From: Planctomycetes bacterium GWF2_41_51
GTDB lineage: Bacteria > Planctomycetota > Phycisphaerae > Sedimentisphaerales > UBA12454
Length of the DNA stretch: 33,687 nt
Direction of reading: 5' to 3'
NCBI GenBank assembly: GCA_001825665.1
Contig: MHXZ01000124.1
Span: 1-33,687 of the forward strand
Under the pieces are notes generated by a model. The model was not told where the DNA came from. It searched no databases and saw only the letters and a list, made by a program, of their open reading frames with translations. Numbering within the stretch: the stretch's first letter is position 1; each line of letters starts with the position of its first letter. Position numbers and translations under genes: made by a program. This document shows positions 2,621 to 29,123 of the stretch, piece by piece.

Positions 2621-2648
2621 AATCTATCCTGTTATTTTAAATTAAAAT

Positions 2649-2712
2649 GTTATCAGTTATCAGAACTCAGTTATCGGGTAAAACTGATAACCGCTAACCG
2701 AAAACTGATAAC
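2649..2712. repeat. Cluster of direct and inverted TTATCAG/CTGATAA units inside the ATPase operon
   Basis: The F-A spacer holds TTATCAG at 2650-2656 and 2657-2663, a related CAGTTATCGG near 2668, and the inverse CTGATAA at 2684-2690 and 2705-2711, each inside AACTGATAAC. The inverted units could form hairpins in the transcript between subunits F and A. It looks like a small dispersed or minisatellite-type repeat, but copy number elsewhere cannot be seen from this window. Confidence 0.6.
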
Positions 2713-2749
2713 TTCGTGCTTCGGTTTTAAAAGTTAATTCGCTGTAGTA

Positions 2750-3073
2750 TTAAACATTCTTTAATATATTTATTCCGGTTGCGATTTTCAAAAGCTTCGA
2801 GAGGCTTTCAATCGCGAACCCTTTTGATTCAGTAGTGAACGGCACGACAAGGACGCAGGGGACAGCCTTTGAGACGAACTGTCCTAATACCTGGTGCGCT
2901 GCCGGAGCGATATTCTCGGCAACAATTATCAGGGAATATTTTTCAGCGATGATTTTTTCCGCTTTGGCTTTGATTTCATCGGCATTTTCGCTTACCGGAT
3001 AACAATCGACACCAAGAGCCGAGAAGGGCATCACGAAGTCCGCACTACCAAATATTGCAACTTTTCCCTGCAT
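2750..3073 (-). CDS. atpF: A/V-type ATPase subunit F
   Basis: Small central-stalk subunit, 107 residues, that binds subunit D in the rotor and affects coupling. The sequence opens with MQGKVAIFGSADFVMPFSALGV, the usual Rossmann-like start of the family (compare the I-G-D-x-D-x-V-x-G-F-x-L-x-G pattern), and has the conserved YSLIIVAENIA strand and a flexible C-terminal helix. Its ATG overlaps the TAA of subunit C as TAATG, so the two are translationally coupled. It is followed by the repeat-bearing 129-bp spacer before subunit A. Sequence similarity in this family is low, so position in the operon contributes much of the confidence. Confidence 0.9.
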   Translation of the reverse strand: MQGKVAIFGSADFVMPFSALGVDCYPVSENADEIKAKAEKIIAEKYSLIIVAENIAPAAHQVLGQFVSKAVPCVLVVPFTTESKGFAIESLSKLLKIATGINILKNV

Positions 3074-4107: not shown

Positions 4108-4695
4108 TTATTGTCCGAATAACTGCCGGGCCAATTTTCCTTCGAGCTGCTGCGCCGCGACTTTTAGCATAACATCGAGAGAAGCGTTAGTCTGCCGCTT
4201 GCCTTGTCTTAAAATGAAACCAGCATCGATATCCGCTTTTTCGTCCGCGATGCGAAGATTGCCTTTGTCTCCGAGCTTTTGATTAACACGGCTGACAAAA
4301 TCGTTATTGATGCGTTTTTCATTTTTGCCGATGACTAATTCTTCACCGCCGGTTTTTACCGATGCGATTATCAAGCCTTCTATCAGGTTGAGATATTCAT
4401 CATCGTTCATCGATTTTATTTTCTGAGCGGTTTTTTCGACGACCTTATTAAGCAGGGTTCTTTTAGTTTCGGTTTCCTGCCGTAAAGCCGCCATTCTGGC
4501 GCCGGCAAGAATCCGTTCTTTACTTTCCAATGTCGCCTTTTCACAAAGGCGCTGCGTTTCCTGCTCAAATGACGAAAGTTCTTTTTCCGTCTCGGCGTTT
4601 AAGGCGTTTAATTTCTCATCGGCCTGGGCTTTAATCTTTTGCGCCTGGGCCTGGGCTTCGTTAAGAATTTTTTGTACTACCTGATTAGTATCCAT
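4108..4695 (-). CDS. atpE: A/V-type ATPase subunit E (peripheral stalk)
   Basis: Peripheral-stalk subunit, 195 residues, that pairs with the H/G-type subunit as a long coiled coil and holds the catalytic head static against the rotor. Residues 1-100 are charged, Ala/Glu/Gln/Lys-rich heptads (EAQAQAQKIKAQADEKLNAL), and the C-terminal half is the globular E domain with LIEGLIIASVKTGGEELVIG and the closing DAGFILRQGKRQTNASLDVM motif. It lies 18 bp after the proteolipid gene and abuts subunit C. The length is normal for the family. Confidence 0.93.
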   Translation of the reverse strand: MDTNQVVQKILNEAQAQAQKIKAQADEKLNALNAETEKELSSFEQETQRLCEKATLESKERILAGARMAALRQETETKRTLLNKVVEKTAQKIKSMNDDEYLNLIEGLIIASVKTGGEELVIGKNEKRINNDFVSRVNQKLGDKGNLRIADEKADIDAGFILRQGKRQTNASLDVMLKVAAQQLEGKLARQLFGQ

Positions 4696-4713
4696 AATTT
4701 ATCCGACCATTAG

Positions 4714-5202
4714 TTATGCTACTGTTTTAATGCCGAGAACAAGCAGCAGTGAAATCAAAAAGCCAAGAATCGCGTAGAACTCAATCATAGCTGCGTAGAG
4801 AACGCCGGCTTTGACAGCCATTTCCGGTCTTTTAGCGGTCATAATAATGCCGCTTGCAGATGCTTTGCCTTGCTGAATGCCGCTAATCAAACCTGCAACT
4901 GCTACTGGTAAACATGCCGCGAATATTTCAAAGCCGTTCATCATTGTAAGTTCGATTGGGGTTCCACCGATGATTTTAAGCTTTACCATAACCATAACGG
5001 CGATAACGAAACCGTAGATACCCTGCGTACTTGGCAGAAGCACCATCAGCATCAAAGAGCCGTAACGTTCCGGCTTTTCGCTCAGAACTCCGCCAGCGGC
5101 CCTTGCGGCTATGCTAAGACCTACAGAAGAACCGATACCTGCGATAAATGTTGCTACAGCCGCTCCGGCTAATGCAAATGTTAAACCTAAATTTTCGAGC
5201 AT
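4714..5202 (-). CDS. atpK: A/V-type ATPase proteolipid subunit K (rotor ring), Na+-type residues
   Basis: Membrane rotor subunit that carries the transported ion. The 162 residues form two tandem hairpins (four membrane segments), a duplicated proteolipid. The first hairpin has L56-P-S-T59-Q60 and lacks a carboxylate. The second has Q111-G-K and the essential E141 in AAMIEFYAILG. These correspond to L61, T64, Q65, Q110 and E139, the Na+ ligands known in Enterococcus hirae NtpK, so Na+ specificity is a reasonable inference. The start has a GAGG ribosome-binding site 8 bases upstream. It lies between subunits I and E as in archaeal operons. Confidence 0.95.
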   Translation of the reverse strand: MLENLGLTFALAGAAVATFIAGIGSSVGLSIAARAAGGVLSEKPERYGSLMLMVLLPSTQGIYGFVIAVMVMVKLKIIGGTPIELTMMNGFEIFAACLPVAVAGLISGIQQGKASASGIIMTAKRPEMAVKAGVLYAAMIEFYAILGFLISLLLVLGIKTVA

Positions 5203-5227
5203 TGCTATTACCTCACTTTCCTTAAAT

Positions 5228-7204
5228 TTATTCTTTAATCATTACGTGTTTATATTCCTGTGTTAAAGGGCGAAAATCAGTTCCGCCACCGGAAAAGAAT
5301 TTCGGGAAAAATTCGACAAACTGGAGTCTGAGTGAATGAACGAACGCTCCCAACAGCGAAAGCGCGACGTTGAAGGTATGACCGACTACGAACAAAATCG
5401 CTCCGGCAACAAATCCGATATAAGGAATGTCCATAAGCAATTTAACTAAAACGTTTATCGCCATTCCGAAACCGGCTCCCACCATCCCGAGAGCCATCAA
5501 ACGTACATAACTTAAAATGTCGCCTACGTAAAATACGGTGCTGAACAACTGGAATGCACCCATTCCAATTCTTGAACCCCATGAGCCTTCGCGTACCGCA
5601 AACAGCAAAATTGTAAGTGCACAGATAATAGCGACAGCGACGCTGACAGGCATTAGCGAGGCAGGGAGGATTTCGGCTTTAATCAGACCGATGACACCAA
5701 AATTATTAAGAAATACGAGCCAGACAACCTGGTCGCAGATTGCGCCGATAAAATTCTTAACCATTAAGTTTCTTACCAAAGCGATACAGAAGCCGAACAT
5801 AATTTGAATGTACCCAAGTGCCAATGTAAGAAGGATAAAATTAATCGGCTGACCAATCGGGTCTATCAAAAGAAATTTAAGGCGAATGCCGTTGAGAACG
5901 TTGAAAGCCTGTGTGTTCTCAGGTATTAAAGCGCTGAATGTATCAGCAAACCAGCTTCCTGTAATTAAACCGGCCAGGATTGTAGTGAAACTGCACATGA
6001 AAAACATTATCACAGCTTCCTTGCCTGCCTGGAGTTTTCGTGCAAGCCACCATAAGGCAACGGCAAGAATAATTCCGTATCCGACATCGGCAACGCACAA
6101 TCCCATAAATATAGCGAAGAAGGGTGCGAGGAATACTGTGGGGTCAACGCTCGTTTGATGGGGCATTCCATAAAGTCGCGTTACGGTTTCAAACGGACGG
6201 ATGAATTTATTATTGTCTATTTCGACAGGCACATCTTCGCCTTTTTTGATTGGTATTTCGCTCAGGCTGGAAGCGTCGAATTGTTTGAGGATTTTCTTCA
6301 AATGATGCAAATCGTTCTTTTTGACCCAGCCTTCGAAAATAAAGACCTGCTCGCTTTGAGGCGATGTCATTTGCGTTTTTTGCCTGCTGAGCAAATTTCG
6401 ATAATAATCGGCCAAAATTTCCAAATCCAATAAGCTGCTGACGAGTTCTTTGGCCTGCTTATGGGCATTTGCCAAATCCTTTTCAACAGCTTCTAATTTT
6501 TCCCTGTATTCTTTTATAAGATGATGTGCTGTTCCTTTAAGGTTTGCGAAATTGACAGCCTCGAATTCGAGATTTCGCAAAAATTTGTGAACTTCCTGTG
6601 TATTTTCATTGAAACATACCGCGTAAAACGCGATTGTGCTGTTGTCTCTGCTGATTCGTTCAAAAATTGCAAGTTTAGACAATTTGTTTGCAGCTTCGGC
6701 AAAATTTTTCTCAGAAAGAAAACCCGCTAAAACTGTTGCATTGTGCAAACTGTCTACTTCTTCAAGCGGGGTTTGCAAATTTTCCCAAGGAAGCAGATAT
6801 TGTATTTGACCGAAGATATTTTCCGATTCAGTTGAGAGGTTTTCAATTTTTTTTGCTATAAGCAGGCAGTCTTCAAGCTTTTTATTAGCTTCTGCACTGC
6901 CGATAACGTTTGCAAATTTATTTTGCTCAACTATTGTTCTGGGTGCAAACGCAGAGGCTAATCCGCCTTTTTTTTCTTCATAAGCTTTAAGAAATGAAAT
7001 CGCCTGCTCGAGTTTTTCGAGTTTTTCTTCAATTTGCCTGGGCCTTTCCCAAACGCTTTCAAGCTCGGGCCATTCTTTGCGGACAGCCGAACGCTGTACA
7101 TCGAGCACTTCCATAACGCCCATCCGCTGAATCGCTTCGAGCAGTTCGCCGGCCTGGTTTTTGTAGCTGGCGATCAGGATTTTTTTCATTTGAGATATGG
7201 CCAT
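5228..7204 (-). CDS. atpI: A/V-type ATPase subunit I (a-subunit, stator membrane channel)
   Basis: The a-type stator subunit that provides the two ion half-channels next to the K ring. The 658 residues divide into a cytoplasmic N-terminal half (about 1-330) with coiled-coil arms and a C-terminal half (about 350-645) with multiple membrane helices starting at DPTVFLAPFFAIFMGLCVAD. The conserved Arg that displaces the ion is at about residue 626 in HSLRLQFVEFFPKFF. Motifs ADVGYG and GDILSYVRLMALGM are family hallmarks. It follows subunit H by 25 bp and precedes K by 25 bp. The start ATG has no clear Shine-Dalgarno sequence, as for several genes in this window. Confidence 0.95.
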   Translation of the reverse strand: MAISQMKKILIASYKNQAGELLEAIQRMGVMEVLDVQRSAVRKEWPELESVWERPRQIEEKLEKLEQAISFLKAYEEKKGGLASAFAPRTIVEQNKFANVIGSAEANKKLEDCLLIAKKIENLSTESENIFGQIQYLLPWENLQTPLEEVDSLHNATVLAGFLSEKNFAEAANKLSKLAIFERISRDNSTIAFYAVCFNENTQEVHKFLRNLEFEAVNFANLKGTAHHLIKEYREKLEAVEKDLANAHKQAKELVSSLLDLEILADYYRNLLSRQKTQMTSPQSEQVFIFEGWVKKNDLHHLKKILKQFDASSLSEIPIKKGEDVPVEIDNNKFIRPFETVTRLYGMPHQTSVDPTVFLAPFFAIFMGLCVADVGYGIILAVALWWLARKLQAGKEAVIMFFMCSFTTILAGLITGSWFADTFSALIPENTQAFNVLNGIRLKFLLIDPIGQPINFILLTLALGYIQIMFGFCIALVRNLMVKNFIGAICDQVVWLVFLNNFGVIGLIKAEILPASLMPVSVAVAIICALTILLFAVREGSWGSRIGMGAFQLFSTVFYVGDILSYVRLMALGMVGAGFGMAINVLVKLLMDIPYIGFVAGAILFVVGHTFNVALSLLGAFVHSLRLQFVEFFPKFFSGGGTDFRPLTQEYKHVMIKE

Positions 7205-7771: not shown

Positions 7772-9568
7772 TCATAACCGCTGCGGCGAACTTTCAACTA
7801 ATTTATTATCGTTTTGTTTTTGACACCATGTATGCCACATATTCCTGTATGCGTCTTCCATTCTTTTGGCGAATATGATTTGGTTACAAAGCGAACTTGT
7901 ACGCATTCTATCCCGCATTGTATTCCTGATTTTGGCCAGCGAATCCGGTTTTAACGCAAGTGCAACTGCTCTGGCGACGTACTGCTCCGGTGTTGGAGCG
8001 GCGAAAAACTCAAAACCGAGGTTTGTTAATATGCTTAATCCGACTCGCGACATGTGGTGTTCGCCAATGAGAGATACAACAGGTACACCCATTAAAAGCG
8101 ACTGGCATGTGGTTGTCGTGCCGTTGTACGGATAAGTATCCAGTGCAATGTCAACTCTGTTATAAAGTGTGAGGTCGGCAGGTGACTGGAGCCAGCCGGA
8201 AATAGCAATCCTGTCCCTGGTTACACCGGCATCCTCAAATTTTTTAAGGAATATTTCGCGAATCTCATCATCCTGGCCGGATTTGAATTTCAGCAGAAGA
8301 TTTGAATTTGGCACCTGATTCAATATTTTTGCCCAGAGTCCTATAATAAACGTGTTAATTTTACTGCTATTGTTGAAACAACCGAAAGTGATATATCTGT
8401 TAGCTAAAACCGGTGATGGGGCGATGGGGGGTTGTAAACTTCCGGGACCATAACACAGGAAAGTGTCCGGGATATACATTAATTTTTCAGAGTAATATTT
8501 TTCGCTTCCGGGCGGGTCTGTTATAGCATCTGTTATCCTATAATCAATCTGGCTCATGCCTGTCGTATCCGGATAGCCGCACCATGTAACCTGGATTGGT
8601 GCTGGTTTGTATGCCATTGCATAAATTTTTGAATCTCCGGAATGGCCGGCTAAATCGACGAGAATGTCAATTTCGTCGTTTTCAATGATCTCTGCTGTTT
8701 GCTTATCATCGAGGGGACGGACATTTCTGTATTGGTCGAATTTATTTTTCAGTCGCTCGGTCGTCTCATCATAATTACAAACATTGCCATAACCGTAAAC
8801 TTCAACTTTTTCCCTATTGTGTGCTTCGAGCAGAGGTTCAAAAAAATAATTAACCGAATGATTGCGAAAATCGGGAGAAATGTAGCCTATTTTGAGTTTT
8901 TTGTCCGGGTCTGGAACATTGATATGGTTTGTTTTTGCCAATCGCTGGGGCATATTCCGTTTTGCCCATTTTACAGCGGCATCATACATAACGGAACGTT
9001 CCAATTTGGGCAAATAATGCATGTGAAGCAGCATATTTGAAAAGGCAAAATTATCATCAGGACGCTTTTCGACTAATTTACGGTCTATTTCTATCGCAGT
9101 TTCCACCTGGCCAAGATTAATCAAATTAGTGGCGAGATTTCCGGAAAGCAGGGGCTGATTGGGATTTACATCTATCGCCCTTTTTAAATAAATAACAGCT
9201 TTTCCAATTCGTCCTGTTTTTCTGAATATATCCGCCAATTCATTAAAAACCGCTGAATGATTATTAATTTTCAAAAGATCTTCATACATCTGCTCGGCTC
9301 TGAATAATTGATTGGCATTTTTTAGAAGGCCGGCAATGTGATACATACTGAATATTTTGTTTGTGCCGGATGTATTCCAGAGATAATCATTAACGAATTT
9401 TTCGTCTAAAATTGTATTTGCGTTGTCAATTTGGTTATTTTCAATGGCAGCTTTGGCGTCCTTCATCCATTGAGGCATACATTCAGCGGCCCATTGGTCG
9501 AATTTCATACCTTCCAACGCATCTTTTGTTTCTTTCTTGCTGTTTGCCTTTTTTGATTTTCGGCGCAT
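7772..9568 (-). CDS. TPR-linked O-GlcNAc transferase-like glycosyltransferase 1 (SPINDLY/OGT family, GT41)
   Basis: Predicted cytoplasmic O-linked sugar transferase. From the ATG (598 residues), a Lys-rich N-terminus is followed by TPR helices about residues 65-195, then a GT41-type catalytic region from KIGYISPDFRNHSV onward. Counterparts of human OGT residues are visible: H237 (H498), H309 in DLAGH, K403 in FNNSSKIN (K842) and NGTTTT at 482-487 (the HTT nucleotide loop), so it looks catalytically intact. It ends with WHTWCQK, shared with OGT2. The ATG at 9566-9568 is preferred; an in-frame TTG three codons upstream is possible. A sigma-54 promoter lies 25 bases upstream of the start, tying it to the flagellar regulon. 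Flagellin is the likely target by context; the exact sugar is unknown. Confidence 0.9.
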   Translation of the reverse strand: MRRKSKKANSKKETKDALEGMKFDQWAAECMPQWMKDAKAAIENNQIDNANTILDEKFVNDYLWNTSGTNKIFSMYHIAGLLKNANQLFRAEQMYEDLLKINNHSAVFNELADIFRKTGRIGKAVIYLKRAIDVNPNQPLLSGNLATNLINLGQVETAIEIDRKLVEKRPDDNFAFSNMLLHMHYLPKLERSVMYDAAVKWAKRNMPQRLAKTNHINVPDPDKKLKIGYISPDFRNHSVNYFFEPLLEAHNREKVEVYGYGNVCNYDETTERLKNKFDQYRNVRPLDDKQTAEIIENDEIDILVDLAGHSGDSKIYAMAYKPAPIQVTWCGYPDTTGMSQIDYRITDAITDPPGSEKYYSEKLMYIPDTFLCYGPGSLQPPIAPSPVLANRYITFGCFNNSSKINTFIIGLWAKILNQVPNSNLLLKFKSGQDDEIREIFLKKFEDAGVTRDRIAISGWLQSPADLTLYNRVDIALDTYPYNGTTTTCQSLLMGVPVVSLIGEHHMSRVGLSILTNLGFEFFAAPTPEQYVARAVALALKPDSLAKIRNTMRDRMRTSSLCNQIIFAKRMEDAYRNMWHTWCQKQNDNKLVESSPQRL

Positions 9569-9603
9569 ATTTGTCAAGGTTCCAATTCAAATATTGTAAA
9601 CTA

Positions 9604-9619
9604 AGCAATAAATGTGCCA
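9604..9619 (-). promoter_or_regulatory. Sigma-54 (-24/-12) promoter of OGT-like gene 1
   Basis: The minus strand reads TGGCACATTTATTGCT, a perfect match to TGGCAC-N5-TTGCW with GG and GC ten bases apart. The expected transcript start is near 9593, giving a 25-base leader. A 13-base palindrome AAAATGCCATTTT at 9626-9638 lies just upstream. The element is in the fliS-OGT1 spacer and points at the glycosyltransferase. Confidence 0.85.
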
Positions 9620-9712
9620 GTTAGGAAAATGCCATTTTGAAGATTTTAAATGGGGGTATTATGATTGTTGTTTGAAGTATGTCAGGATATTATACGGTTG
9701 AGAGGTGAAATA

Positions 9713-10072
9713 TTACACGGAAATAGCCTTCCAGCTTTGGTTCAATTCGTCCAAAAGTTTGATAACTTCTTCCAGCTTTTGAGTGTCATTTTTTGTATTT
9801 GCTTCGTGAATCTGGCGAATCATAAACATATATAATGCGCGAAGATTTGTTGCGATTTCACCGCCTGCTTCCATATCCAAAACGGTATTCAATTCGTTAA
9901 TTATGTCCTCGGCCTTGAGAAGGTACTTGCTTTTTGCTTCAAAATCCTCGGCCTGAATTTCAATGATGGCACGTTTCAGGAATTTTATAGCACCTTCATA
10001 AAGCATAACGACAATGCGACCCTGGCTTTGTGTCGTGATTGAATTTTCCTGGTATGTTTCGTAACTCTTCAT
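9713..10072 (-). CDS. fliS: Flagellar export chaperone FliS
   Basis: Cytoplasmic chaperone that binds the flagellin C-terminus and prevents premature polymerisation before export. The 119-residue, all-helical sequence has the family signatures YQENSITTQSQGRIVVMLYE near the N-terminus, AIKFLKRA, and LRALYMFMIRQIHEAN in the middle. Length is normal. It lies 99 bp downstream of flagellin on the same strand, behind the flagellin terminator, so it is likely expressed by partial read-through; no separate promoter was recognised. A GGAG sits 9 bases before the ATG. The sigma-54 promoter of OGT1 begins in the spacer that follows. Confidence 0.96.
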   Translation of the reverse strand: MKSYETYQENSITTQSQGRIVVMLYEGAIKFLKRAIIEIQAEDFEAKSKYLLKAEDIINELNTVLDMEAGGEIATNLRALYMFMIRQIHEANTKNDTQKLEEVIKLLDELNQSWKAISV

Positions 10073-10112
10073 TATTCGGCACTCCGTTTTGCTCTTATAC
10101 TATTAATGCGTT

Positions 10113-10147
10113 TTTAAAAAAAGGGGACGGTATTGATGCCGTCCCCT
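10113..10147 (-). terminator. Intrinsic terminator after flagellin
   Basis: AGGGGACGG at 10122-10130 pairs with CCGTCCCCT at 10139-10147 (9 perfect base pairs, 8-base loop), and on the minus strand the stem is followed by a run of seven U. It lies 25 bp past the flagellin stop and before fliS, so it should cap the abundant flagellin mRNA and reduce fliS expression. Confidence 0.93.
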
Positions 10148-10171
10148 ATTAAATTTTCAAATATGCTCGAA

Positions 10172-11479
10172 TTATCTGAGCAGTGAAAGAGCCATCTGAG
10201 GCATTGAATTAGCCTGAGACAACATAGCGATACCCGCTTGAGAAAGCACTTGTGTTCTGGTCAACGCGGCCATTTCAGTAGCAACGTCAACGTCAGATAT
10301 ACGGCTTTCCGCAGACATCAGGTTCTCAGCCTGAATATCGAGAATCGATATCGTGCTTTCGAGACGGTTCATCTTATAACCGAATGCCGCACGGGCTGCG
10401 TCTTTAACTGTAATCGCATTGCCTACCGATGTCAAAGCAGATTGTGCTGCTGAAGCGGTAAGAATGTTGATGCCTTCGCCAACGGCGACGGTACCGAATT
10501 GTGCGATAACACTTGAAGGTGCGGTGTCTATATCTGTAGTGGCGACGATGAAACCCGATGTTGTAATTGCAGATTCAGTAGCTGAAGCAGTAATAGCCAC
10601 AGAATCAGCTGCTTCAGTGTTTGAATCGAGCTGGAGGAAATAGTTGCCGCTTGTATCGAGTTTTGCCGAAGCCATCTGGTAATTAAGAGAATTACCATCT
10701 GTACCATTACCGAGGTTCTGGCTGACGAGGTTAATTGCATCGATAACTTCCTGGAGAGTGTAATTCTTTGCTCCGCCGTCAGTTATTGCAAATGAAACGT
10801 CAACTGCTGTCTCATCAGTACTTGCATCGGTATCACTGAAAGTAAAACTCAAGGTAACAGTGTCTGTCGCGGCTGCATCACCGGCATCTGTAAGTGTAAA
10901 GTATGTGTCTGTTAATGCAGTAACAGCACTTGACGCAACTATTGTCGCGCCTACATTGCCAGTTGCAATGCTAAGACCGGTTTCAGTGGTCATATCCTGT
11001 CTTTCAACAGTGATTGTTTCATCTGTACCGACGTGAATCTCTACATCAGCAGTACTGTCGGCTGTTGTTAACATTCTAATGCCGTTGAATGCTGTAGCGC
11101 CGGCGATTCTATCAATTTCATCGGCCATTTCAGCAAACTCGGCGTTCATAATTGTTCTTTGTGCTGTAGAATATGAGCCTGTGGCAGCCTGTTCAGCAAG
11201 TTCTTTCATTCTGATCAAGTTGTCATCTATAACGCCCATTGCACCTTCCATTGTTTGTAACATACTGATACCGTCCTGTGCGTTACGTGCTCCCTGCTGT
11301 AAAACAGCAACGTCAGCACGAATTAATTCGCGAACGGCCAAACCTGCAGCATCGTCCTTTGCACTGTTTATGCGAAGGCCTGATGCTAATCTCTCAACAC
11401 TTGTTGACAAGCTGTCATAAGCTCTACCCAAGTGTCTGGCAGCGTTACTTGCCATAATGTTGTTTTTAATCGCTAACAT
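10172..11479 (-). CDS. fliC: Flagellin
   Basis: Filament structural protein, 435 residues. Conserved D0/D1 helices are at the N-terminus (about 1-155, with LERLASG-type VERLASGLRINSAKDDAAGL and AQDGISMLQTMEGAM) and at the C-terminus (about 355-435, with LSQANSMPQMALSLLR). The middle, about 160-350, is a variable surface domain unusually rich in Thr, Ser, Ala and Asp and nearly free of Lys and Arg. This supplies many potential O-glycosylation sites next to two OGT-like genes. AAGGAG lies 8 bases before the ATG. A sigma-28-like promoter is about 112 bp upstream and an intrinsic terminator follows. It is the only flagellin in the window. Confidence 0.97.
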   Translation of the reverse strand: MLAIKNNIMASNAARHLGRAYDSLSTSVERLASGLRINSAKDDAAGLAVRELIRADVAVLQQGARNAQDGISMLQTMEGAMGVIDDNLIRMKELAEQAATGSYSTAQRTIMNAEFAEMADEIDRIAGATAFNGIRMLTTADSTADVEIHVGTDETITVERQDMTTETGLSIATGNVGATIVASSAVTALTDTYFTLTDAGDAAATDTVTLSFTFSDTDASTDETAVDVSFAITDGGAKNYTLQEVIDAINLVSQNLGNGTDGNSLNYQMASAKLDTSGNYFLQLDSNTEAADSVAITASATESAITTSGFIVATTDIDTAPSSVIAQFGTVAVGEGINILTASAAQSALTSVGNAITVKDAARAAFGYKMNRLESTISILDIQAENLMSAESRISDVDVATEMAALTRTQVLSQAGIAMLSQANSMPQMALSLLR

Positions 11480-11590
11480 GGTTTTGACTCCTTAAAAAAT
11501 AAACGTTTACCTTTTTAGGCCCTGTCAAGCCTTAATTCTCACATCAATGCGCTACAAGCACATCGAGGGAAAAAATCATATACAATGTGA

Positions 11591-11617
11591 TTTTCGATTG
11601 AGAAAAGAAAAACTTAA
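11591..11617 (-). promoter_or_regulatory. Sigma-28-like flagellin promoter
   Basis: The minus strand has TTAAGTTT, eleven bases, then ATCGAAAA. The first box matches 7 of 8 positions of the TAAAGTTT consensus, the spacer is exact, and the second box matches 5 of 8 of GCCGATAA. The expected leader is about 105 nt. FliA-type control of flagellin is the common arrangement, but the -10 match is imperfect. Confidence 0.5.
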
Positions 11618-11723
11618 GGGGGTTTTTTAATTTAGATAAGAAGAGTAATATGGGTTGTGGAAAAACGCGTTTTTTGACGCTGAAAACGGCATTTTCGGAC
11701 GTAAAGCGAGGGGAAAAAACGAT

Positions 11724-11846
11724 ATGAAATTTTATGGTCTCTTAATAACGCGCATAAGCGTACTGATAATGATTTTGTGGGTACTGAGTTACTCAAAAAA
11801 AATTTTATTTTTCAAAAAATATTGTGCCATTTATCTTAATCTATAG
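11724..11846 (+). CDS. Possible small membrane peptide (40 codons), doubtful
   Basis: A short open frame beginning MKFYGLLITRISVLIMILWV has a hydrophobic segment at about residues 4-22 followed by a Lys-rich tail. A GAGGGG sequence lies about 10 bases before the ATG, and a weak hairpin with eight T follows the stop. The frame can be extended upstream to a TTG at 11655. It resembles no family I know, and A/T-rich DNA yields such frames by chance, so it may not be a gene. Confidence 0.2.
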   Translation: MKFYGLLITRISVLIMILWVLSYSKKILFFKKYCAIYLNL

Positions 11847-11885
11847 ATGGGTAGTGCGGTATGTCCGATAATGACATGATTTTTT

Positions 11886-13886
11886 TTAAATAGTGGTCTC
11901 GCTGGTTTTTTGGCACCATTGATGCCACATTTTTCTATAAGCGGATTCTACTTCTTCTGCGAGGCGTTTGGAATCGCATAGCGGACTATTTGTCATTTTT
12001 TTACGCAGAGAGGCTCTTAGTTCAACAATTTTATCCTTGTTTTTGGCCAATTCAGCGGCTTTTGCGATATATTGAGGGATTGTTGGGACCGCGTAATCGT
12101 TAAAGCCTATTCTGCTAAGGATTGTCAGCGCGGCTCTTTCATTCATGTGTGAGCCATACTTGGAAATGAAGGGGACACCCATATATAAAGAATCACACAT
12201 AGTTGAGCCGCCGTTTTCAGGGAAAGTATCCAATGCAATGTCAATAGTCTCATATTGTTTCATATATTCTTCATAAACTTTTCGTCCGCTGAATTTTATT
12301 CTCTCTTTGGAAACTCCGAATTTCTCAAAATCTCTGAGAAAAGTAGCCTGTACGGCAGGGTCGCTGCCGCCATCAAAGCCAATCAATAATCTGGAAGTTG
12401 AAACGCTTTTTAAAATTTCAGCCCATGTTTGAAGCAGTTTGCTGTTGAATCTAAGATTATTTGTAAAAACACCAAATGTCGGATATCCATTTTTAACAAT
12501 TGGGGCAGGACTTATTTCAAGGTCTATATGGGGATGATAGAAACAGACGCCTCCGGGCAAATATGCTAATTTTTCTGTGTAGTACCTTTGCGTTTCATTG
12601 GGATTCAGCAGTTCGTCTGTTATTATATAGTCCACCTGCGGCATTCCGGTAGTATCGAAATATCCGAGATATGTAACCTGAACAGGGGCAGGCTTGCGAG
12701 CTAAAACTAAAAGACGATTATTTACTGTATGGCCTGCAAGGTCGATCAATATATCAATCTCATCTTCCCTGATTACTCTTGCTACCGCATCATCATTTAC
12801 CCCATAAACATTGCGATATTTATGAAACATTTTCATAAACTTCGGTGTTAAAGAATCCGGCATTTCAACGTTTGCATAACCGTAAATCTCAAAATTAATG
12901 CGATTATGTTCTGTAAGAAGCTTGTCAAATATATAACCAACCGAGTGATGGCGGAAATCGGGAGAAATGTAGCCGATTCGGAGTTTACGATTGGGGTCTG
13001 GATTGTTGTTATGGTTTAAATTTGCCAGAGACATGGGAGCCTGCTTGATTCCCCATTGTTTATGTGCTTCGAAAATGTTCTGCTGGTCTACTTCGGGCAG
13101 TAAATGCAGATGATAAAGGTATGCGGAATGCATACTGATATCAACAGACTCTTTCTTTATAGAATTCTCCAGAATTTTAGTAGCTTCACGAATTTGTCCT
13201 GATTTTATAAATGCAACGGCAAGGAAATTCAGGGTGTTTTGATTGCCAGGCTGCAATTCGAGGGCTTTTCGCAGATAAAAGATGGCATCAGCCATGCGTC
13301 CGATTCTCATATATAGACAGCCGAGCCTGTGGTATGATGGAGCGTGCGGAACAACTTTCAGGATATTGAGAAACAATTGTTCGGCCAAATCATTCTGGAA
13401 AATATGCTCATACAGCATTGCGAGTTCGAACATTAAATCAAATTTCCCCTTCGGATTTTCCACAATCATTTTTTCCAGAGTTTCGGCGGCGTTTTTGCCT
13501 TTTCCCTGTTTTCGCATTGATTCAGCCATCTCACGTACGCCAAGGATGGTTTTCTGATTTCTCAAAGCTTTGCACATAAAGTCAATTGCTGTTTCATTAT
13601 GGTTGAGCTTACTTAGCACAAGTCCTATACTTTCGACGATATGTGTTGAATTGGGATTGTATTCATGAGCCTTATTGAGCCATTTCAATGCTTCTGCATA
13701 GTTCCCTTTGGCACGATATACATCGCCTATTCCGCTGTATGCCATAAACCGATTGGATTCGATATTCTGCTTGAAAATTTCGATTGCTTTATCGTGCTCG
13801 CCTCTGTTGATTGCAGAAGCGGCATCTGAAAGAAATTTGGGAGGGCCTTTTTGTGTGTTATTCTGTGCTGCAACATTGTTTGACAT
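11886..13886 (-). CDS. TPR-linked O-GlcNAc transferase-like glycosyltransferase 2 (divergent GT41 paralogue)
   Basis: A 666-residue paralogue of OGT1 with a longer TPR array (about residues 10-260) and a GT41-type C-terminal region starting at LRIGYISPDFRHHSV. H314 and H386 match conserved OGT histidines, but the position of human K842 is R479 (TNNLRFN), the nucleotide-loop TTT is replaced by G-S-T in NGGSTMC (558-564), and SRVG becomes ERAA. The enzyme may therefore have altered donor use or low activity. It shares the C-terminal WHxWCQK with OGT1, indicating duplication. The ATG at 13884-13886 is chosen because AAGGA lies 7 bases upstream; a longer in-frame extension to 13943 lacks support. 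It is transcribed toward flagellin. Confidence 0.9.
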   Translation of the reverse strand: MSNNVAAQNNTQKGPPKFLSDAASAINRGEHDKAIEIFKQNIESNRFMAYSGIGDVYRAKGNYAEALKWLNKAHEYNPNSTHIVESIGLVLSKLNHNETAIDFMCKALRNQKTILGVREMAESMRKQGKGKNAAETLEKMIVENPKGKFDLMFELAMLYEHIFQNDLAEQLFLNILKVVPHAPSYHRLGCLYMRIGRMADAIFYLRKALELQPGNQNTLNFLAVAFIKSGQIREATKILENSIKKESVDISMHSAYLYHLHLLPEVDQQNIFEAHKQWGIKQAPMSLANLNHNNNPDPNRKLRIGYISPDFRHHSVGYIFDKLLTEHNRINFEIYGYANVEMPDSLTPKFMKMFHKYRNVYGVNDDAVARVIREDEIDILIDLAGHTVNNRLLVLARKPAPVQVTYLGYFDTTGMPQVDYIITDELLNPNETQRYYTEKLAYLPGGVCFYHPHIDLEISPAPIVKNGYPTFGVFTNNLRFNSKLLQTWAEILKSVSTSRLLIGFDGGSDPAVQATFLRDFEKFGVSKERIKFSGRKVYEEYMKQYETIDIALDTFPENGGSTMCDSLYMGVPFISKYGSHMNERAALTILSRIGFNDYAVPTIPQYIAKAAELAKNKDKIVELRASLRKKMTNSPLCDSKRLAEEVESAYRKMWHQWCQKTSETTI

Positions 13887-13915
13887 CTTCAATCCTTTTT
13901 TGATGGTTAGAACTG

Positions 13916-13943
13916 ATAATATAAAAACTATTTGAAAATTCAA
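13916..13943 (-). promoter_or_regulatory. Possible sigma-70 promoter of OGT-like gene 2
   Basis: The minus strand has TTGAAT and TATTAT separated by 16 bases, about 30 bp upstream of the ATG. There is no -24/-12 element in this spacer, so OGT2 appears to be expressed differently from OGT1. Confidence 0.4.
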
Positions 13944-13961
13944 GGTTTTTTCAAATTAATC

Positions 13962-13989
13962 TTGTGAGACAGCCGGAGAATTATACAAT
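13962..13989 (+). promoter_or_regulatory. Possible sigma-70 promoter of the TPR-GT9-like gene
   Basis: TTGTGA and TACAAT are separated by 16 bases, ending 32 bp before the TTG start at 14022. The match is fair, and it is divergent from the OGT2 promoter in a 135-bp spacer. Confidence 0.4.
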
Positions 13990-14021
13990 AGTTTTCAGGA
14001 AGTTTTGATTCGGAGTTTATT

Positions 14022-15611
14022 TTGCCGCAGCCTGATGGAACAGATAAGGAAATAGTGAGCACAATTGACCTGGCGTTTTCGGCTTATGGTAATGCCGATA
14101 TGCAACAGGCAGAGCGTCTTTGCCGGGGAGTTCTTGAAAAAGCTCCAAACCAAATCGAAGCGATGCAATTGCTGGGGCTGATTTACGGTAAACAAGGTAA
14201 ATATGCCGAAGCGGCGGAATTACTCCATAAAGCAATTCAAATCAAACCTGATTCAGCGAAAATACATAATAATTTAGGTGTCGCATTAATGCAGCTCGGC
14301 AATTTGGAGCAGGCTCAGGCTGCTTTCGAGAAAGCAATTGCTCTACAAACAGATTTCAAACAGGCATATAATAATCTCGGACTGGTTTTGAAAAAACATG
14401 GCAGGGTCGCTGAATCAGAGGCGGTGTTTGAAAAAGCGATTATGATTGACGCAAAATATGCAGAAGCATTGGGTAATCTTGGTGTTGCGTTTTTATTGCA
14501 GAGGAAATTTGAAGATGCAGCGGAAAATCTGCAAAAGGCAATTGAGTTAAAACCGAATCTGGCAGAATTTCATAATAATCTTGGCAATGCACTGATGGAG
14601 CTTTATAGATTCGATGAGGCGATAGCGGCTTTTGATAAAGCGATTGAAATTGAACCGCAGTCGGCTCAGCCGCATCATAATCGCTCGCTTGTTTTGATTT
14701 TGACGGGACAGTTTGAGCAGGGGTGGAAGGAATACCAATGGCGATGGAAGAACAGCGGTTTCTCAACTCCGCTGCGTCCGTTTAAACAAAAGATGTGGGA
14801 TGGGGCGGCTATTGCGGGGAAATTGCTGGTCTGGGGCGAACAGGGTATTGGGGATGAAGTACAGTTTTCGGGGCTTATTCAGTATATAGTCGCTAAAGGT
14901 ATAAAGGTGATTGCTGAATGCGATAAGCGTCTTGTTCCGATTTTGCAGCGAAGTTTGCCGCAAATTACAGTTGTGCCGCGAACTGACCCGCCGGCAGAAC
15001 TGCTGAATGATGCTTCGATTACCCATCAGATTCCAATGTGTTCTATTCCGTTGGCTTTAGGTTGGCCGATGGATTTAAAACCTCATCTTGTCGCTGATGA
15101 AAATCTGCGAAATCAATTGCGCGGCCGATACAAAAATGGAAAGAAAGTTTTGCTTGCCGGGATAAGCTGGAGGAGCGGCAATACTCAGGAAGGGCCGAAG
15201 AGGTCGATTGATTTGGAATACTGGGAGCCTGTATTGAAAATTGCGGGTGTGAAATTTATCAGTCTGCAATATGGTCAATGCCAAAAACAATTGCAGGAAG
15301 CTAACCAGCGGTTTGGAATTGAAATTTTAAAAGATGAAACAATCAATCCTATGACGGACCTGGAAGGTTTTGCCGCTCAAACTGCCGCGATGGATATAAT
15401 AATTTCAGTCGATAATTCAACGGTGCACTTTGCGGGAGCTATGGGGGTTAAAGTTTGGACGCTGTTGCCGAAAGTTCCGGACTGGAGATGGGGGCTTGAA
15501 GGCGAAAAAACGTGCTGGTATCCTTCGATGCGTCTTTTCCGTCAAAAGGAAAGAGGAAACTGGCAGCCTGTGATTTCAAACGTTGCACAGGAACTGCGTT
15601 CACTTATTTAA
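14022..15611 (+). CDS. TPR protein with C-terminal GT9/heptosyltransferase-like domain
   Basis: The 529-residue protein has about six TPR units in residues 10-225 (repeats such as IHNNLGVALMQLGNLEQAQ and FHNNLGNALMELYRFDEA) joined to a C-terminal domain with WGEQGIGDEVQF at 271-282, AGISWRSG near 379-386 and SVDNSTVHFAGAMG at 462-475. The last motif resembles the S-x-D-x-x-x-x-H-x-A-x-A-x-G nucleotide-sugar signature of ADP-heptose-type transferases. This architecture is common in planctomycete and alphaproteobacterial surface or flagellar glycosylation loci. The start is a TTG with GGAG six bases upstream; no ATG lies close by. It is divergent from OGT2 and convergent with the GT2 gene, with 3 bp between stops. 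The acceptor and sugar are unknown. Confidence 0.82.
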   Translation: MPQPDGTDKEIVSTIDLAFSAYGNADMQQAERLCRGVLEKAPNQIEAMQLLGLIYGKQGKYAEAAELLHKAIQIKPDSAKIHNNLGVALMQLGNLEQAQAAFEKAIALQTDFKQAYNNLGLVLKKHGRVAESEAVFEKAIMIDAKYAEALGNLGVAFLLQRKFEDAAENLQKAIELKPNLAEFHNNLGNALMELYRFDEAIAAFDKAIEIEPQSAQPHHNRSLVLILTGQFEQGWKEYQWRWKNSGFSTPLRPFKQKMWDGAAIAGKLLVWGEQGIGDEVQFSGLIQYIVAKGIKVIAECDKRLVPILQRSLPQITVVPRTDPPAELLNDASITHQIPMCSIPLALGWPMDLKPHLVADENLRNQLRGRYKNGKKVLLAGISWRSGNTQEGPKRSIDLEYWEPVLKIAGVKFISLQYGQCQKQLQEANQRFGIEILKDETINPMTDLEGFAAQTAAMDIIISVDNSTVHFAGAMGVKVWTLLPKVPDWRWGLEGEKTCWYPSMRLFRQKERGNWQPVISNVAQELRSLI

Positions 15612-15614
15612 TTT

Positions 15615-16409
15615 TTATTTTAAATGCTCAGGCAGTTCAATTCCATAATTGGCATACATCCGCTGCAATACTCTTTTTTGCAGATATTGTATTTTTGGCG
15701 ATGCCCATTGGCTGTATCGTTTATAAATCAATTCAAGATTCGTTAATCGTCTTTGTTTATTGGAGCCGGTTTGTGAAATGTCATCATTTTTTTCTTTGAA
15801 CTCGGATGTAACTTTTGCAATGTGAGCGAAGTCATACCAATGCGACAGCCGAATCCACATATCAAGGTCTTCGTGCGTGGCAAGCGACTCATCGAAATAT
15901 CCTGTTTTCTCCAAACATGCCTTCTCGTGCATTATACTTTGAATCGCTATATAGCTTGCGACCAGAAAATAATCCCGATTAAAATCCTGCGAGTGATAGA
16001 TTTCTTTGGCAATCGTAACATATTTATCGTTTCTCCTTTCCTGGAGAACACGATACGCATCTGTATAGACGGCTTTGTATTCAGATGTTTCGAGAAAATC
16101 CGTTAATGTCTGGATATGGGCGGGATAGATGATGTCATCGTCATCGAGATAGGCGATGTATTTGCCCTCGGCGCTGTGAAGGCCGGTATTTCGTGCTGCG
16201 GCAGGGCCTTTACTCGTATGATGATTGATATATTTTATTTCCATATTTTTGGAAGCTGCGCTGATAATATCCTGAACATCGCATTCGCCGTCATTGACAA
16301 CGATTACTTCGATATCCTTATAGGTTTGTTTGGCAATACTATCCAGCGCCTCTGTCAAAGTATCAGGGCGGTTATGCGTCGGAACAATTATCGAAACTTT
16401 TTTTGTCAT
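15615..16409 (-). CDS. Family 2 glycosyltransferase
   Basis: A 264-residue inverting GT-A fold transferase. It starts with KVSIIVPTHNRPDTLTEALD, has the nucleotide-binding D40 in VVND, the GPAAARNTGLHSAEGKYIAY segment and the metal-binding DDDD at 89-92. A C-terminal acceptor region includes THEDLDMWIRLS, typical of family 2 enzymes. It is the last gene of the fliK-GT4-GT2 unit; its ATG overlaps the stop of the GT4 gene as ATGA, so the two are coupled. No membrane segment is visible, so it likely acts in the cytoplasm, for example extending a sugar first placed on a flagellar protein. The exact substrate cannot be read from the sequence. Confidence 0.93.
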   Translation of the reverse strand: MTKKVSIIVPTHNRPDTLTEALDSIAKQTYKDIEVIVVNDGECDVQDIISAASKNMEIKYINHHTSKGPAAARNTGLHSAEGKYIAYLDDDDIIYPAHIQTLTDFLETSEYKAVYTDAYRVLQERRNDKYVTIAKEIYHSQDFNRDYFLVASYIAIQSIMHEKACLEKTGYFDESLATHEDLDMWIRLSHWYDFAHIAKVTSEFKEKNDDISQTGSNKQRRLTNLELIYKRYSQWASPKIQYLQKRVLQRMYANYGIELPEHLK

Positions 16410-18049
16410 TCAGATATTTTGATAAGATTATATTTTGCCATCCACAATAAATAATACATCGCTGTCGAATCGGATATTTCCGCATTTTTTTTCAGAGCGG
16501 CCGCAAACTGCTGTGCCGTGATGATGTTTTGATTAATGTTTTTTATTGCTGCCATGACAAGCTGCGGTACGATAATGCTTGCGCTGACATCTGAATACGG
16601 GACGGGAACTTTTCCTGAAATGAACACTTTGCTGCCGTATTCAGTCAAAGATATTTTGCTATCGGCAGCAACAATCTTTGAAGGATAATGTGAAAAGACC
16701 GAATAATAATCAACTTCCCATGGATTCTTCGGTTTGCTTATTTCAATTTTGCTCTCAGCGGCCTGTTTGGCGAGCTCATCCCATAAATTGCAGTATTGCT
16801 TAATTATATCCGACCAGAAATATTTTTGCTGAGTTTTCTTTCTCGCCTCTTTTCCTAATGCAGTGCATTTTTCAGGATTATCGAGAAGCTCCTGAAAAGC
16901 ATCTGACATTTTATCAATGTCAACCGCGACAGACTGACTCAAAAGCAGTTGGTGTGTCGGGAAATTCATTATTTCTGATATATCCCTAAAACCATCTGTA
17001 GCGTCAGCCCAGTATGTAGGGATTTTAACGCCGTTTATATCATGGTCAACGATTTCAGAATACCCATTGAAATCTGAAATTACCGGGGTGCATTCGTGTG
17101 CCATTGCTTCGACAACTGAAATGCCGAAAGTTTCCTGGAAGTTATCGATTGGAGAGGTATATACATTTGCCGCCCTGTAAAGATGCGTCTTTAAACCATC
17201 TTCAAAATTAATAAATAATTTTGCGGCCGCTTCAAGCTGGTTTTCTTTTAGCACATCTTTTATGAATTTTTGTGATTGGTTATCCCCGCCGCCTGCGATG
17301 ACAAGGTTTATTTTTTTGTCTTTGTTCTTCTGAACGAAATTTTTCACACAGTTTAAAAACGGCAGTATGTCCATTTTATTATTCGTTTCGAGCCGTCCCA
17401 GCATAAGTATCACAAACGAATCGTTGTCAATGCCGAGCAGTTTTCTGCTTTCCGTTCTGTCAGGAATTTTTCTGTAAGCATCATCTATGCCCAATGGAAT
17501 GACATCCATTCGGCCGTTATATTTTGCACCGGAATGTTTAAAATTGTTTTCTGCCTGCGCGAACAGATTTTGCAGGACTTTTTTGCCGCAATTACTGGTG
17601 CATACGATTGAATCGAAAGGCATTGTCGGCGCCATGCAGACCTTTAACGCGTGGAATGAAGATTCTTTAGCATTAAGAGAATGTGTTACGCCGGTGATTG
17701 GGAACATTTTCGGGGAATTGATATTTCTAAAATGAGCAAAACCCGGATAGAAAAAGCCCCATCCGCCGAGGTGGAATATATGATAATTATTTTCAGCTAT
17801 TGTTTGTTTAAGAGAGGAGATATGAAAAATTTTAATCTTCTGTTTCCGGTCGTTTGGGATGTTTTCCTTCACGATTTTTTCGCTGCTTAATTTGCAGTTC
17901 GAGAAAGTAGGGCAGAAAATATGAAATTCATCAAAATCCGAATAGCGGAATAGTGCATTATAAAATTCGTAATTTGCTACAAGTCTGCCGATTTTGAACG
18001 AACTGTCGGCCGATTCTATAAATGGCTGTACTGTACCGAATATTTTCAT
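16406..18049 (-). CDS. Family 4 glycosyltransferase with an unusual C-terminal extension
   Basis: A 547-residue retaining GT-B transferase. The C-terminal Rossmann domain is clear: VILMLGRLETNNKMDI near 213-228, LVIAGGGDN near 249-257, and the E-x7-E donor-site motif in ETFGISVVE (E306 and E314). After the normal end of the domain (about residue 420) there are about 100 more residues, including an Ala/Ile-rich helical tail (ITAQQFAAALKKNAEISDST), which I do not recognise. The gene starts 27 bp after fliK and overlaps the GT2 gene by 4 bp, so it should share the sigma-54 promoter of fliK. A role in flagellar glycosylation is inferred from this linkage. Confidence 0.9.
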   Translation of the reverse strand: MKIFGTVQPFIESADSSFKIGRLVANYEFYNALFRYSDFDEFHIFCPTFSNCKLSSEKIVKENIPNDRKQKIKIFHISSLKQTIAENNYHIFHLGGWGFFYPGFAHFRNINSPKMFPITGVTHSLNAKESSFHALKVCMAPTMPFDSIVCTSNCGKKVLQNLFAQAENNFKHSGAKYNGRMDVIPLGIDDAYRKIPDRTESRKLLGIDNDSFVILMLGRLETNNKMDILPFLNCVKNFVQKNKDKKINLVIAGGGDNQSQKFIKDVLKENQLEAAAKLFINFEDGLKTHLYRAANVYTSPIDNFQETFGISVVEAMAHECTPVISDFNGYSEIVDHDINGVKIPTYWADATDGFRDISEIMNFPTHQLLLSQSVAVDIDKMSDAFQELLDNPEKCTALGKEARKKTQQKYFWSDIIKQYCNLWDELAKQAAESKIEISKPKNPWEVDYYSVFSHYPSKIVAADSKISLTEYGSKVFISGKVPVPYSDVSASIIVPQLVMAAIKNINQNIITAQQFAAALKKNAEISDSTAMYYLLWMAKYNLIKISE

Positions 18050-18076
18050 TCAGGTTTTTTAACAATTTTGTTTGAA

Positions 18077-19645
18077 TTATGCCAGCATATTTATTGAAGC
18101 GCCGCTAAATTGCATCAGCGGTTCGGCAATATTCGAGACAGTTTCAGCGAAGGCGTTCCATTGACTGTAAACGCTGCCGCTTCTTTGGGGTTCATGGTTT
18201 GGTGAGCTTTGCTGCTGTGAAGGGCTGTTCTGGCCGGAAAATGATGATTGATCTTTCAATGTATGCTGCTCCTGTTGATTTGATAACACAACTTCGATTT
18301 TTTTTACCAAGATGCCATTTTCCTGAAGATTCTGAATAATTTCAGGAAGTTCTTTTTGTATCTGATTTTTGGTGTGAAGTTCATCTACCTGCATTACACC
18401 GTGTATTTCGTTATTTTCTTCAGAAAACCTGATAGCCACTTTGCCGAGTTCCGGAGGACTGAGCCGAATTACGATTTCCCGCCCATCGGCACTGTACGAT
18501 GTAAATATTGACTCCTGAATTTGACTTGTAACACTTGCCGGGGTTTCGGAATCTACTGCTTTTGAGGGTTCTGCCGTTTCGTATGTATGTTCTGCTGTGT
18601 TAGAAGAAGGAATGTTATTGCTAATGAGTAAATCATTTTCAATTGGAGTATCTACTGCATCATTATTCTTTTCAACTGTCTCGACTGCCTCAACTATTTC
18701 CTGCACCTGAGGTTGAGTGATTTTTTGCTCTGCCGGTTCGAAAAGGATTGCTTCTGTAGTTGAATCCTGTTCCTGGATAACTTCGGAGGATTCTAACTGG
18801 TGCTGATTGTCTTCCTGAGAGGTGTTTTGGGGTTGTACTGTCTCATTTAGCGGCTCTGCATCAGTTACGATTTTATTATTTTGAACTTCAGGTTTATTTG
18901 TGACAATTTCGGGTTTTATTTCGGAAACGATATTTTCTTCAATTGACGTTTCTTCATTATTATCTATCTGTTCAGTAAAGTTTTTATCATCTTTTTGAAT
19001 TACCGCAGCGGTGTTTATAACAGGTGTTTCAGTTGAAAATTCCTCTGTCTCAATTTGAGTTGATTCCAATTGGGTAACTTGTTTTTCATTTTCAAAATAT
19101 GACTGCTGCTCAGAGGTTTGGTTTTCAGGAAGAACTTCGGTATCAGTAATGGATGCCTGATTATTTTCTTTTGAAATTTCCGGCACATCCGTTTGGATTT
19201 TGACGTTTTCAGCTTCGACTGATTCGTTTAATGTAATTTCCTCTGGTAATTGGTTTGTTTCAATTACGTTGGCGGTAATTTCCGAAATTTTGATTTCCGC
19301 ACTATCCTGGATTTCAACTGCCAGTTCATCAATTTTAGCATCGATGCTGATGTTTTGTACTGCTGCAATAGCTATCAGGTCTTGAGATATATCAGCACTA
19401 TCTGGTTCGGAAGTTAATTCCGCTTTCGGTAAGGCTGTGGCGATGGAGCTATCTGAATTTTCCTCATCTGTGATTTTCTTTGCCAAAGTTTGGCTGAAAT
19501 TTTCAAAAATTTCTGTAATAGAAATGTTTTCAGCAGCTTGCTGTCCTAAATCTAAATTCGCAGCATTTTCCGAAGGATTCGCTTGCGACAGTAAATCCTT
19601 CACTGAGATGTTTGCTGCGAACAAATTGTTTAAAGTTATGGACAT
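18077..19645 (-). CDS. fliK: Flagellar hook-length control protein FliK-like
   Basis: A 522-residue protein with a long Glu/Gln/Thr/Ser-rich, disordered-looking region (about 30-375) and a C-terminal hook-control domain at about 384-455 containing IVIRLSPPELGKVAIRF and the conserved hydrophobic-then-charged pattern to KKIEVVLSNQQEQ. This is the FliK layout: a molecular ruler with a C-terminal domain that switches FlhB. The ATG at 19643-19645 (MSITLNNLF) is chosen because a sigma-54 promoter predicts transcription from about 19649; a longer frame to 19732 would begin before the transcript. It is divergent from flgB and heads the fliK-GT4-GT2 unit. Confidence 0.88.
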   Translation of the reverse strand: MSITLNNLFAANISVKDLLSQANPSENAANLDLGQQAAENISITEIFENFSQTLAKKITDEENSDSSIATALPKAELTSEPDSADISQDLIAIAAVQNISIDAKIDELAVEIQDSAEIKISEITANVIETNQLPEEITLNESVEAENVKIQTDVPEISKENNQASITDTEVLPENQTSEQQSYFENEKQVTQLESTQIETEEFSTETPVINTAAVIQKDDKNFTEQIDNNEETSIEENIVSEIKPEIVTNKPEVQNNKIVTDAEPLNETVQPQNTSQEDNQHQLESSEVIQEQDSTTEAILFEPAEQKITQPQVQEIVEAVETVEKNNDAVDTPIENDLLISNNIPSSNTAEHTYETAEPSKAVDSETPASVTSQIQESIFTSYSADGREIVIRLSPPELGKVAIRFSEENNEIHGVMQVDELHTKNQIQKELPEIIQNLQENGILVKKIEVVLSNQQEQHTLKDQSSFSGQNSPSQQQSSPNHEPQRSGSVYSQWNAFAETVSNIAEPLMQFSGASINMLA

Positions 19646-19659
19646 ATACCTATAATAAT

Positions 19660-19675
19660 AGCAATTTACGTGCCA
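19660..19675 (-). promoter_or_regulatory. Sigma-54 promoter of fliK-GT4-GT2
   Basis: The minus strand reads TGGCACGTAAATTGCT, a perfect match to TGGCACR-N4-TTGCW. Counting 12 bases from the -12 C puts the transcript start near 19649, only about 4 bases before the fliK ATG. Confidence 0.9.
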
Positions 19676-19896: not shown

Positions 19897-19912
19897 TGGC
19901 ACATTTCTTGCT
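19897..19912 (+). promoter_or_regulatory. Sigma-54 promoter of the flgB operon
   Basis: TGGCACATTTCTTGCT matches the -24/-12 consensus perfectly (GG and GC ten bases apart). The expected start is near 19923, leaving a 25-base leader before the flgB ATG. Confidence 0.92.
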
Positions 19913-28195: not shown

Positions 28196-28240
28196 TTTGT
28201 GCGTTGCTGCATAATGTTTTTAGGAATGCGGAGGTTTCTT

Positions 28241-29111: not shown

Positions 29112-29123
29112 ACTATGATAAGC

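Follow-up and report, generated by a model that had tools for sequence, protein, structure and literature searches.

A Flagellar Locus with Five Glycosyltransferase Genes of Four Families in a Planctomycete of the Order Sedimentisphaerales

Introduction

Flagellin glycosylation systems have been described in several bacteria, and here they are compared with a locus of Planctomycetes bacterium GWF2_41_51 (order Sedimentisphaerales) in which five glycosyltransferase (GT) genes are interleaved with flagellin, fliS and fliK. The window, that is, the whole stretch of DNA analyzed (33,687 nucleotides), corresponds to the complete contig C124; the draft genome has 4.83 Mb and is 95.6% complete. In the flagellin glycosylation islands of enterobacteria, one to three GTs, of a single family in each island, are located between fliC and fliA; enzymes with GT41/SPINDLY domains stand beside fliC, methyltransferases are frequent, and low GC suggests recent transfer (De Maayer and Cowan, 2016, PMC4875605). 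An experimental precedent is FlmG of Caulobacter, a soluble flagellin O-glycosyltransferase that acts ahead of export and whose tetratricopeptide repeat (TPR) domain binds flagellin (PMC7591256). In GmaR of Listeria, which puts N-acetylglucosamine on flagellin and also acts as an anti-repressor, an N-terminal catalytic domain of some 180 residues precedes the TPRs (PMC9638930). No precedent for GT41 enzymes linked to flagellin in Planctomycetes was found in the open-access literature.

The locus belongs to this already known kind of system. Its new features are the mixture of GT families, the partial sigma-54 control, the lineage-specific GT41 arrays, an OGT2 subclade with an arginine/glutamate (R/E) pair in the active site, and the independence from nonulosonic acids. 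It is likely a flagellar glycosylation island, in which flagellin would be O-glycosylated in the cytoplasm before export, with GT2-, GT4- and GT9-type enzymes adding sugars. This reading is based on gene content, homology, active-site residues, promoter motifs and conserved linkage, from which we infer the identity of the acceptor, the donor sugars, the order of action and the timing. Like the enterobacterial islands, the locus has SPINDLY-type GT41 genes beside flagellin and relatives whose islands carry methyltransferases, and in both cases the acceptor is deduced from linkage; unlike them, it combines four GT families (GT41, TPR-GT9, GT4, and GT2), some under sigma-54. GmaR, which the preliminary description of this DNA had offered as precedent, shares the combination of a catalytic domain with TPRs, but its GT domain is short, N-terminal and not of family GT41, so that it is a weak model; FlmG and the GT41-bearing enterobacterial islands are closer.

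Gene Content and Conserved Linkage

All five GT genes named in the preliminary description are present at 7772-19645: two TPR-GT41 genes (OGT1 and OGT2), one TPR-GT9-like gene, one GT4 and one GT2, recognized by Pfam or, for the GT9 type, from a model of the C-terminal domain (CTD). Their placement was also described correctly, between V-ATPase genes (839-7204) and flgB (19948 onward), and the gene order is V-ATPase subunits, OGT1, fliS, flagellin, OGT2, TPR-GT9-like, GT2, GT4, fliK, and a flagellar run from flgB to flhB. GT genes are thus inserted beside flagellin, as in a flagellin glycosylation island. By composition count, serine and threonine make up 27% of the central region of the flagellin.

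The linkage was followed through 161 genomes of the order Sedimentisphaerales, in which the contigs with GT41 were read for neighbours. Flagellin was detected in 129 genomes and GT41 in 38, and GT41 is confined to flagellin-positive genomes (38/129 versus 0/32 flagellin-negative; Fisher P 1e-4). It shares a cluster with flagellin/fliS in 28 of the 38 genomes, or in 29 if G052, with GT41 beside fliK-flgB, is counted. The distance is mostly 0.4-3 kb (0.9 kb in the single-contig G069), and the usual order is fla-fliS-GT41. The preliminary description had looked to such linkage for its flagellar reading and had regarded it as contrary evidence if relatives had these genes at non-flagellar, envelope polysaccharide loci; the linkage strongly supports that reading, and a few copies are located elsewhere. 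The order fliK-GT4-GT2 is kept in the four members of the genus with data (including L031, L169, and L172). GT4 orthologues are 66-83% identical within the genus and 69-70% in G053 and G086, and in G053 the 69%-identical GT4 sits 0.5 kb from flagellin; since identity in these two genomes is above that of OGT1 across families, it hints at transfer. At five loci outside the planctomycetes (L077, L078, L100, L101, and L102), flagellin was found within the fetched GT41 flank. Flagellin length, judged by eye, did not separate GT41-bearing from GT41-less genomes.

The islands of relatives also hold methyltransferases, a sulfotransferase and APS kinase. In G053 (L167, G053:C67, 8463-13566), genes for APS kinase, a sulfotransferase, a methyltransferase and a B12-binding radical SAM protein lie between fliK and GT4-flagellin; five TPR-GT9 genes and at least four of GT41 come next. 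Judging from this gene content, the flagellar glycan of G053 may be both sulfated and methylated.

GT41 Enzymes and Their Tandem Arrays

The GT41 domains of OGT1 and OGT2 score 183 and 158 bits (curated cut-off, 25), and GT41 occurs nowhere in this genome outside the window. In the search of the PDB both proteins were closer, by a wide margin, to SPINDLY (SPY) than to human OGT, and SPINDLY of Arabidopsis, a GT41 protein O-fucosyltransferase, is their nearest solved homologue. The roles of the SPY residues D491, H495, S496, K665, Y744, and T748 have been described (PMC9715652). All six are retained in OGT1, whereas OGT2 has H, R, E, and S at the positions of H495, K665, Y744, and T748. Both proteins differ from SPINDLY in their bacterial, flagellum-linked setting, and OGT2 differs also in its R and E.

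The R/E pair is common to seven proteins, namely the OGT2 proteins of the genus and three copies in G136 (family f6), which form a clade with support of 0.999. In this pair, R replaces the donor-phosphate Lys and E the Tyr of the sugar pocket. Because it is conserved within one clade, the pair represents a conserved change and not decay. The subclade, represented at 4866-10045 of L065 as well as by OGT2 of the window, spans two families. The equivalent of Y744 is found in most bacterial GT41 sampled, so that its presence in OGT1 is by itself no sign of fucose. GDP-mannose 4,6-dehydratase is encoded in the genome, which makes GDP-fucose a possible donor for the GT41 proteins.

Phylogenetic analysis (midpoint-rooted, with the best 80 matches only as outgroups) placed all 95 sampled GT41 domains of the order in a single clade with support of 0.994. 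Within it are tandem arrays of 6 copies in G117, 7 in G118, and at least 11 in G088, a large expansion of one clade that differs from the enterobacterial islands. The five-gene set had been considered unusually large, which does not hold for this order. In G088 (L139, G088:C26, 1-20000), at least 11 GT41 domains follow in series downstream of flagellin-fliS, and the positions of SPY Y744 and T748 vary among them. The arrays also bear on whether OGT1 and OGT2 are instead intracellular regulators acting on a regulator or the export gate, with filament decoration not their main job. SPINDLY and OGT are regulatory in eukaryotes, and GmaR doubles as an anti-repressor (PMC9638930); however, 6 to at least 11 diverged copies beside flagellin fit surface decoration better than a single regulator, and a GmaR-like anti-repressor domain was not seen among the annotated domains, which leaves a regulatory main role very improbable.

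The TPR-GT9-Like Enzyme

The CTD of the TPR-GT9-like protein scores below the Pfam cut-off for GT9 by sequence, and its assignment comes from AlphaFold models (pLDDT 89.6 for the full chain, 85.8 for the CTD folded alone). The CTD model matched 3tov with Z 18.2 (root-mean-square deviation 3.2, 255 residues aligned), WaaC with Z 18.1, and TibC with Z 16.4; TibC is a protein heptosyltransferase. The modelled CTD thus has a GT9/GT-B fold of heptosyltransferase-like type. A structure search with the whole chain had ranked SPY/OGT first, with the TPR matches dominating, and this assignment was discarded in favour of the GT9-like result for the CTD alone. In layout and length the predicted protein resembles FlmG, with N-terminal TPRs and a C-terminal GT-B domain (CTD about 290 aa). 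Homologues adjoin flagellin in many relatives, including G070, G082, G086, and G006, which lack GT41.

The modelled CTD shares its fold with the lipopolysaccharide (LPS) heptosyltransferases WaaC/WaaF, and GT2 and GT4 are generic families, as would suit GTs that build a cell-surface polysaccharide (LPS, capsule, or flagellar sheath) and whose flagellar location is accidental or co-regulatory. Against this, the annotated genes of the locus include no polymerase, flippase, ligase, or initiating enzyme, characterized GT41 and TPR-GT architectures modify proteins, and the linkage is repeated over many genera. Synthesis of a surface polysaccharide is accordingly the least probable of the explanations considered.

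Maf and NeuB as an Alternative System in the Order

A different flagellin glycosylation system, Maf with NeuB, is present in the same order. In family f4, 13 genomes bear flagellin and none of them has GT41; a full-length Maf-type gene (PF01973 below 1e-38) was detected in 10 of the 13, and six of these 10 carry NeuB on the Maf contig at a distance of about 5-6 kb (e.g., G028:C53 and G015:C60). A strong Maf match and GT41 never occurred together in the 161 genomes, an exclusion (P 0.03) that is confounded with ancestry, as it involves one family. In the genome of GWF2_41_51 the PF01973 (Maf) domain was unmatched, and no true NeuB was found in the draft at its 95.6% completeness, the NeuB-family matches being weak and partial (best 2e-12). 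Nonulosonic acid was therefore rejected as donor in this genome, which sets the locus apart from FlmG, for which pseudaminic acid (NeuB) is needed.

Promoters and Regulation

The whole genome was scanned for the -24/-12 pattern TGGCACN5TTGCW, with the reversed pattern as control. Fourteen perfect sites were found, versus none for the control, and three of the 14 fall in the 33.7-kb window (P about 1e-4). RpoN and FliA are both encoded in the genome, so that the sites and the gene for RpoN expected of a sigma-54 regulon are present together. Perfect promoters of OGT1 and of fliK-GT4-GT2 had been described and were confirmed. The same type had been claimed for flgB and fliO; the flgB site is perfect, but that of fliO (29096) has one mismatch. 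Sigma-54 control of the GT set stands for two of the four GT transcription units, OGT1 and fliK-GT4-GT2, and not for OGT2 and TPR-GT9, which are without a sigma-54 site. Sigma-70-type promoters in the region numbered 40 versus 33.2 in shuffles (terminators 14 versus 12.5); since these calls are not clearly in excess, no promoter was assigned to OGT2 and TPR-GT9.

Among the relatives, a perfect sigma-54 site was found in the fliS/OGT1 gap of L031, L035, and L048 and ahead of methyltransferase-OGT1 in L032 and L043, but was not seen ahead of OGT1 in the others, so that this control is only partly conserved. A perfect site upstream of fliK also occurs in L035, L169, and L172. Further perfect sites in the genome precede flgD/flgE, an ammonium transporter, hsp20, dnaK, and response regulators; the sites at these last four indicate a regulon wider than flagella. 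A sigma-28-like motif, mostly TTAAGTTT-N11-NNCGANAA, precedes flagellin in this genome and, at a distance of about 100-150 bp, at 15 related loci. Provided that the promoters behave as they do elsewhere in bacteria, synthesis of the enzymes would precede that of flagellin.

The sigma-54 sites bear on the identity of the target, which may be another exported flagellar protein (the hook protein FlgE, the cap FliD, junction proteins, or FliK itself), the proximity to flagellin reflecting shared regulation only. GT4-GT2 belong to the fliK unit, OGT1 and fliK are under sigma-54 like the hook/basal-body genes, and flgD/flgE elsewhere in the genome likewise have a sigma-54 site. However, GT41 directly follows flagellin-fliS in most linked genomes, and TPR-GT9 adjoins flagellin in GT41-less genomes too; a target other than flagellin is thus considered unlikely.

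Proposed Mechanism

Based on these data, glycosylation of flagellin would probably proceed as follows. OGT1, a soluble SPINDLY/OGT-like GT41 enzyme, would grip flagellin via its TPR domain in the cytoplasm and, with a nucleotide sugar as donor, glycosylate Ser/Thr in the Thr-rich central domain of flagellin; only afterwards would FliS deliver flagellin to the type III export gate. Further sites may be modified, or other sugars added, by OGT2 and TPR-GT9, and a short glycan would arise as GT4 and GT2 extend the sugars already linked to the protein. Sigma-54 would turn on OGT1 and GT4-GT2 alongside the hook/basal-body genes, so that the enzymes would be ready once sigma-28 activates flagellin.

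Several points weigh against flagellin glycosylation by this locus. The genomes of a single order are non-independent samples. In 9 of the 38 genomes no flagellar gene accompanies GT41 on the stretch read (several of the contigs are short), and in G102 and G103 (L049 and L050) its surroundings are non-flagellar, with a GH123 glycoside hydrolase and a STELLO-like glycosyltransferase nearby. Filaments do not require the system, given that 91 flagellin-bearing genomes are without GT41. Near flagella, GT2 homologues were seen only within the genus. Finally, FlgE, FliD, FlgK, or FlgL could be the acceptor instead of flagellin, and OGT2, with its non-canonical donor residues, might be inactive on known donors.

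A broader proposal is put forward tentatively, as possible but doubtful: the flagellin of Sedimentisphaerales would carry a multi-sugar, partly methylated or sulfated glycan made by lineage-specific tandem GT41 arrays, with the R/E OGT2 subclade being a GT41 type that uses a donor new to the family, with neither nonulosonic acids nor Maf involved, and with sigma-54 timing ahead of sigma-28-driven flagellin.

Features of the Window

The features are collected in Table 1. The open reading frame of OGT1 opens at a TTG codon (9577), and ATG at 9568 was taken as its start. Because the mechanical start of fliK (19732) lies upstream of the sigma-54 promoter, 19645 is the likely true start. It is only about 15 nt past the -12 element (19645-19675) and the fliO start is similarly close (29096-29124), so that both leaders would be very short. 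GT2 overlaps the stop of GT4 by 4 bp, and 3 bp separate the end of GT2 from the convergent TPR-GT9 gene. Two tandem MotB-like genes are found at 27494-28969, after MotA/PomA.

Table 1. Positions of genes and predicted signals in the glycosyltransferase region.
Feature	Position	Strand	Evidence or remark
OGT1, TPR + GT41 (SPINDLY-like) glycosyltransferase	7772..9568	-	Pfam GT41 9e-54; SPINDLY best PDB match, 2e-112
Sigma-54 promoter of OGT1, TGGCACATTTATTGCT	9604..9619	-	perfect pattern match
fliS, flagellin export chaperone	9713..10072	-	Pfam FliS 1e-40
Terminator-like hairpin + T tract, flagellin/fliS gap	10122..10147	-	
Flagellin, 435 aa, presumed acceptor	10172..11479	-	Pfam Flagellin_N 1e-34, Flagellin_C 6e-23
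Sigma-28-like promoter upstream of flagellin, TTAAGTTT-N11-ATCGAAAA	11591..11617	-	
OGT2, TPR + GT41, altered donor pocket	11886..13886	-	Pfam GT41 4e-46; SPINDLY 1e-98
TPR-GT9-like glycosyltransferase, start codon uncertain	14022..15611	+	TPRs (Pfam); CTD AlphaFold model GT9-like
GT2-family glycosyltransferase	15615..16409	-	Pfam 5e-32; PDB PglI-type glucosyltransferase 1e-26
GT4-family glycosyltransferase, C-terminal extension of about 120 aa	16406..18049	-	Pfam 2e-22
fliK, hook-length control, first gene of fliK-GT4-GT2 unit	18077..19645	-	Pfam Flg_hook 1e-13
Sigma-54 promoter of fliK-GT4-GT2, TGGCACGTAAATTGCT	19660..19675	-	perfect pattern match
Sigma-54 promoter of flgB operon	19897..19912	+	perfect pattern match; kept upstream of flgB in relatives

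Significance

GT41-linked flagellin modification is extended by this locus to the Planctomycetota, where a single clade has expanded at the flagellar locus, with arrays that reach at least 11 enzymes. The arrays represent a natural series on the choice of donor and site in GT41, to which both human OGT and plant SPINDLY belong. Some lineages of this one order appear to use Maf and NeuB and others GT41 and/or TPR-GT9, which makes the Sedimentisphaerales a useful case of the replacement of flagellin glycosylation systems.

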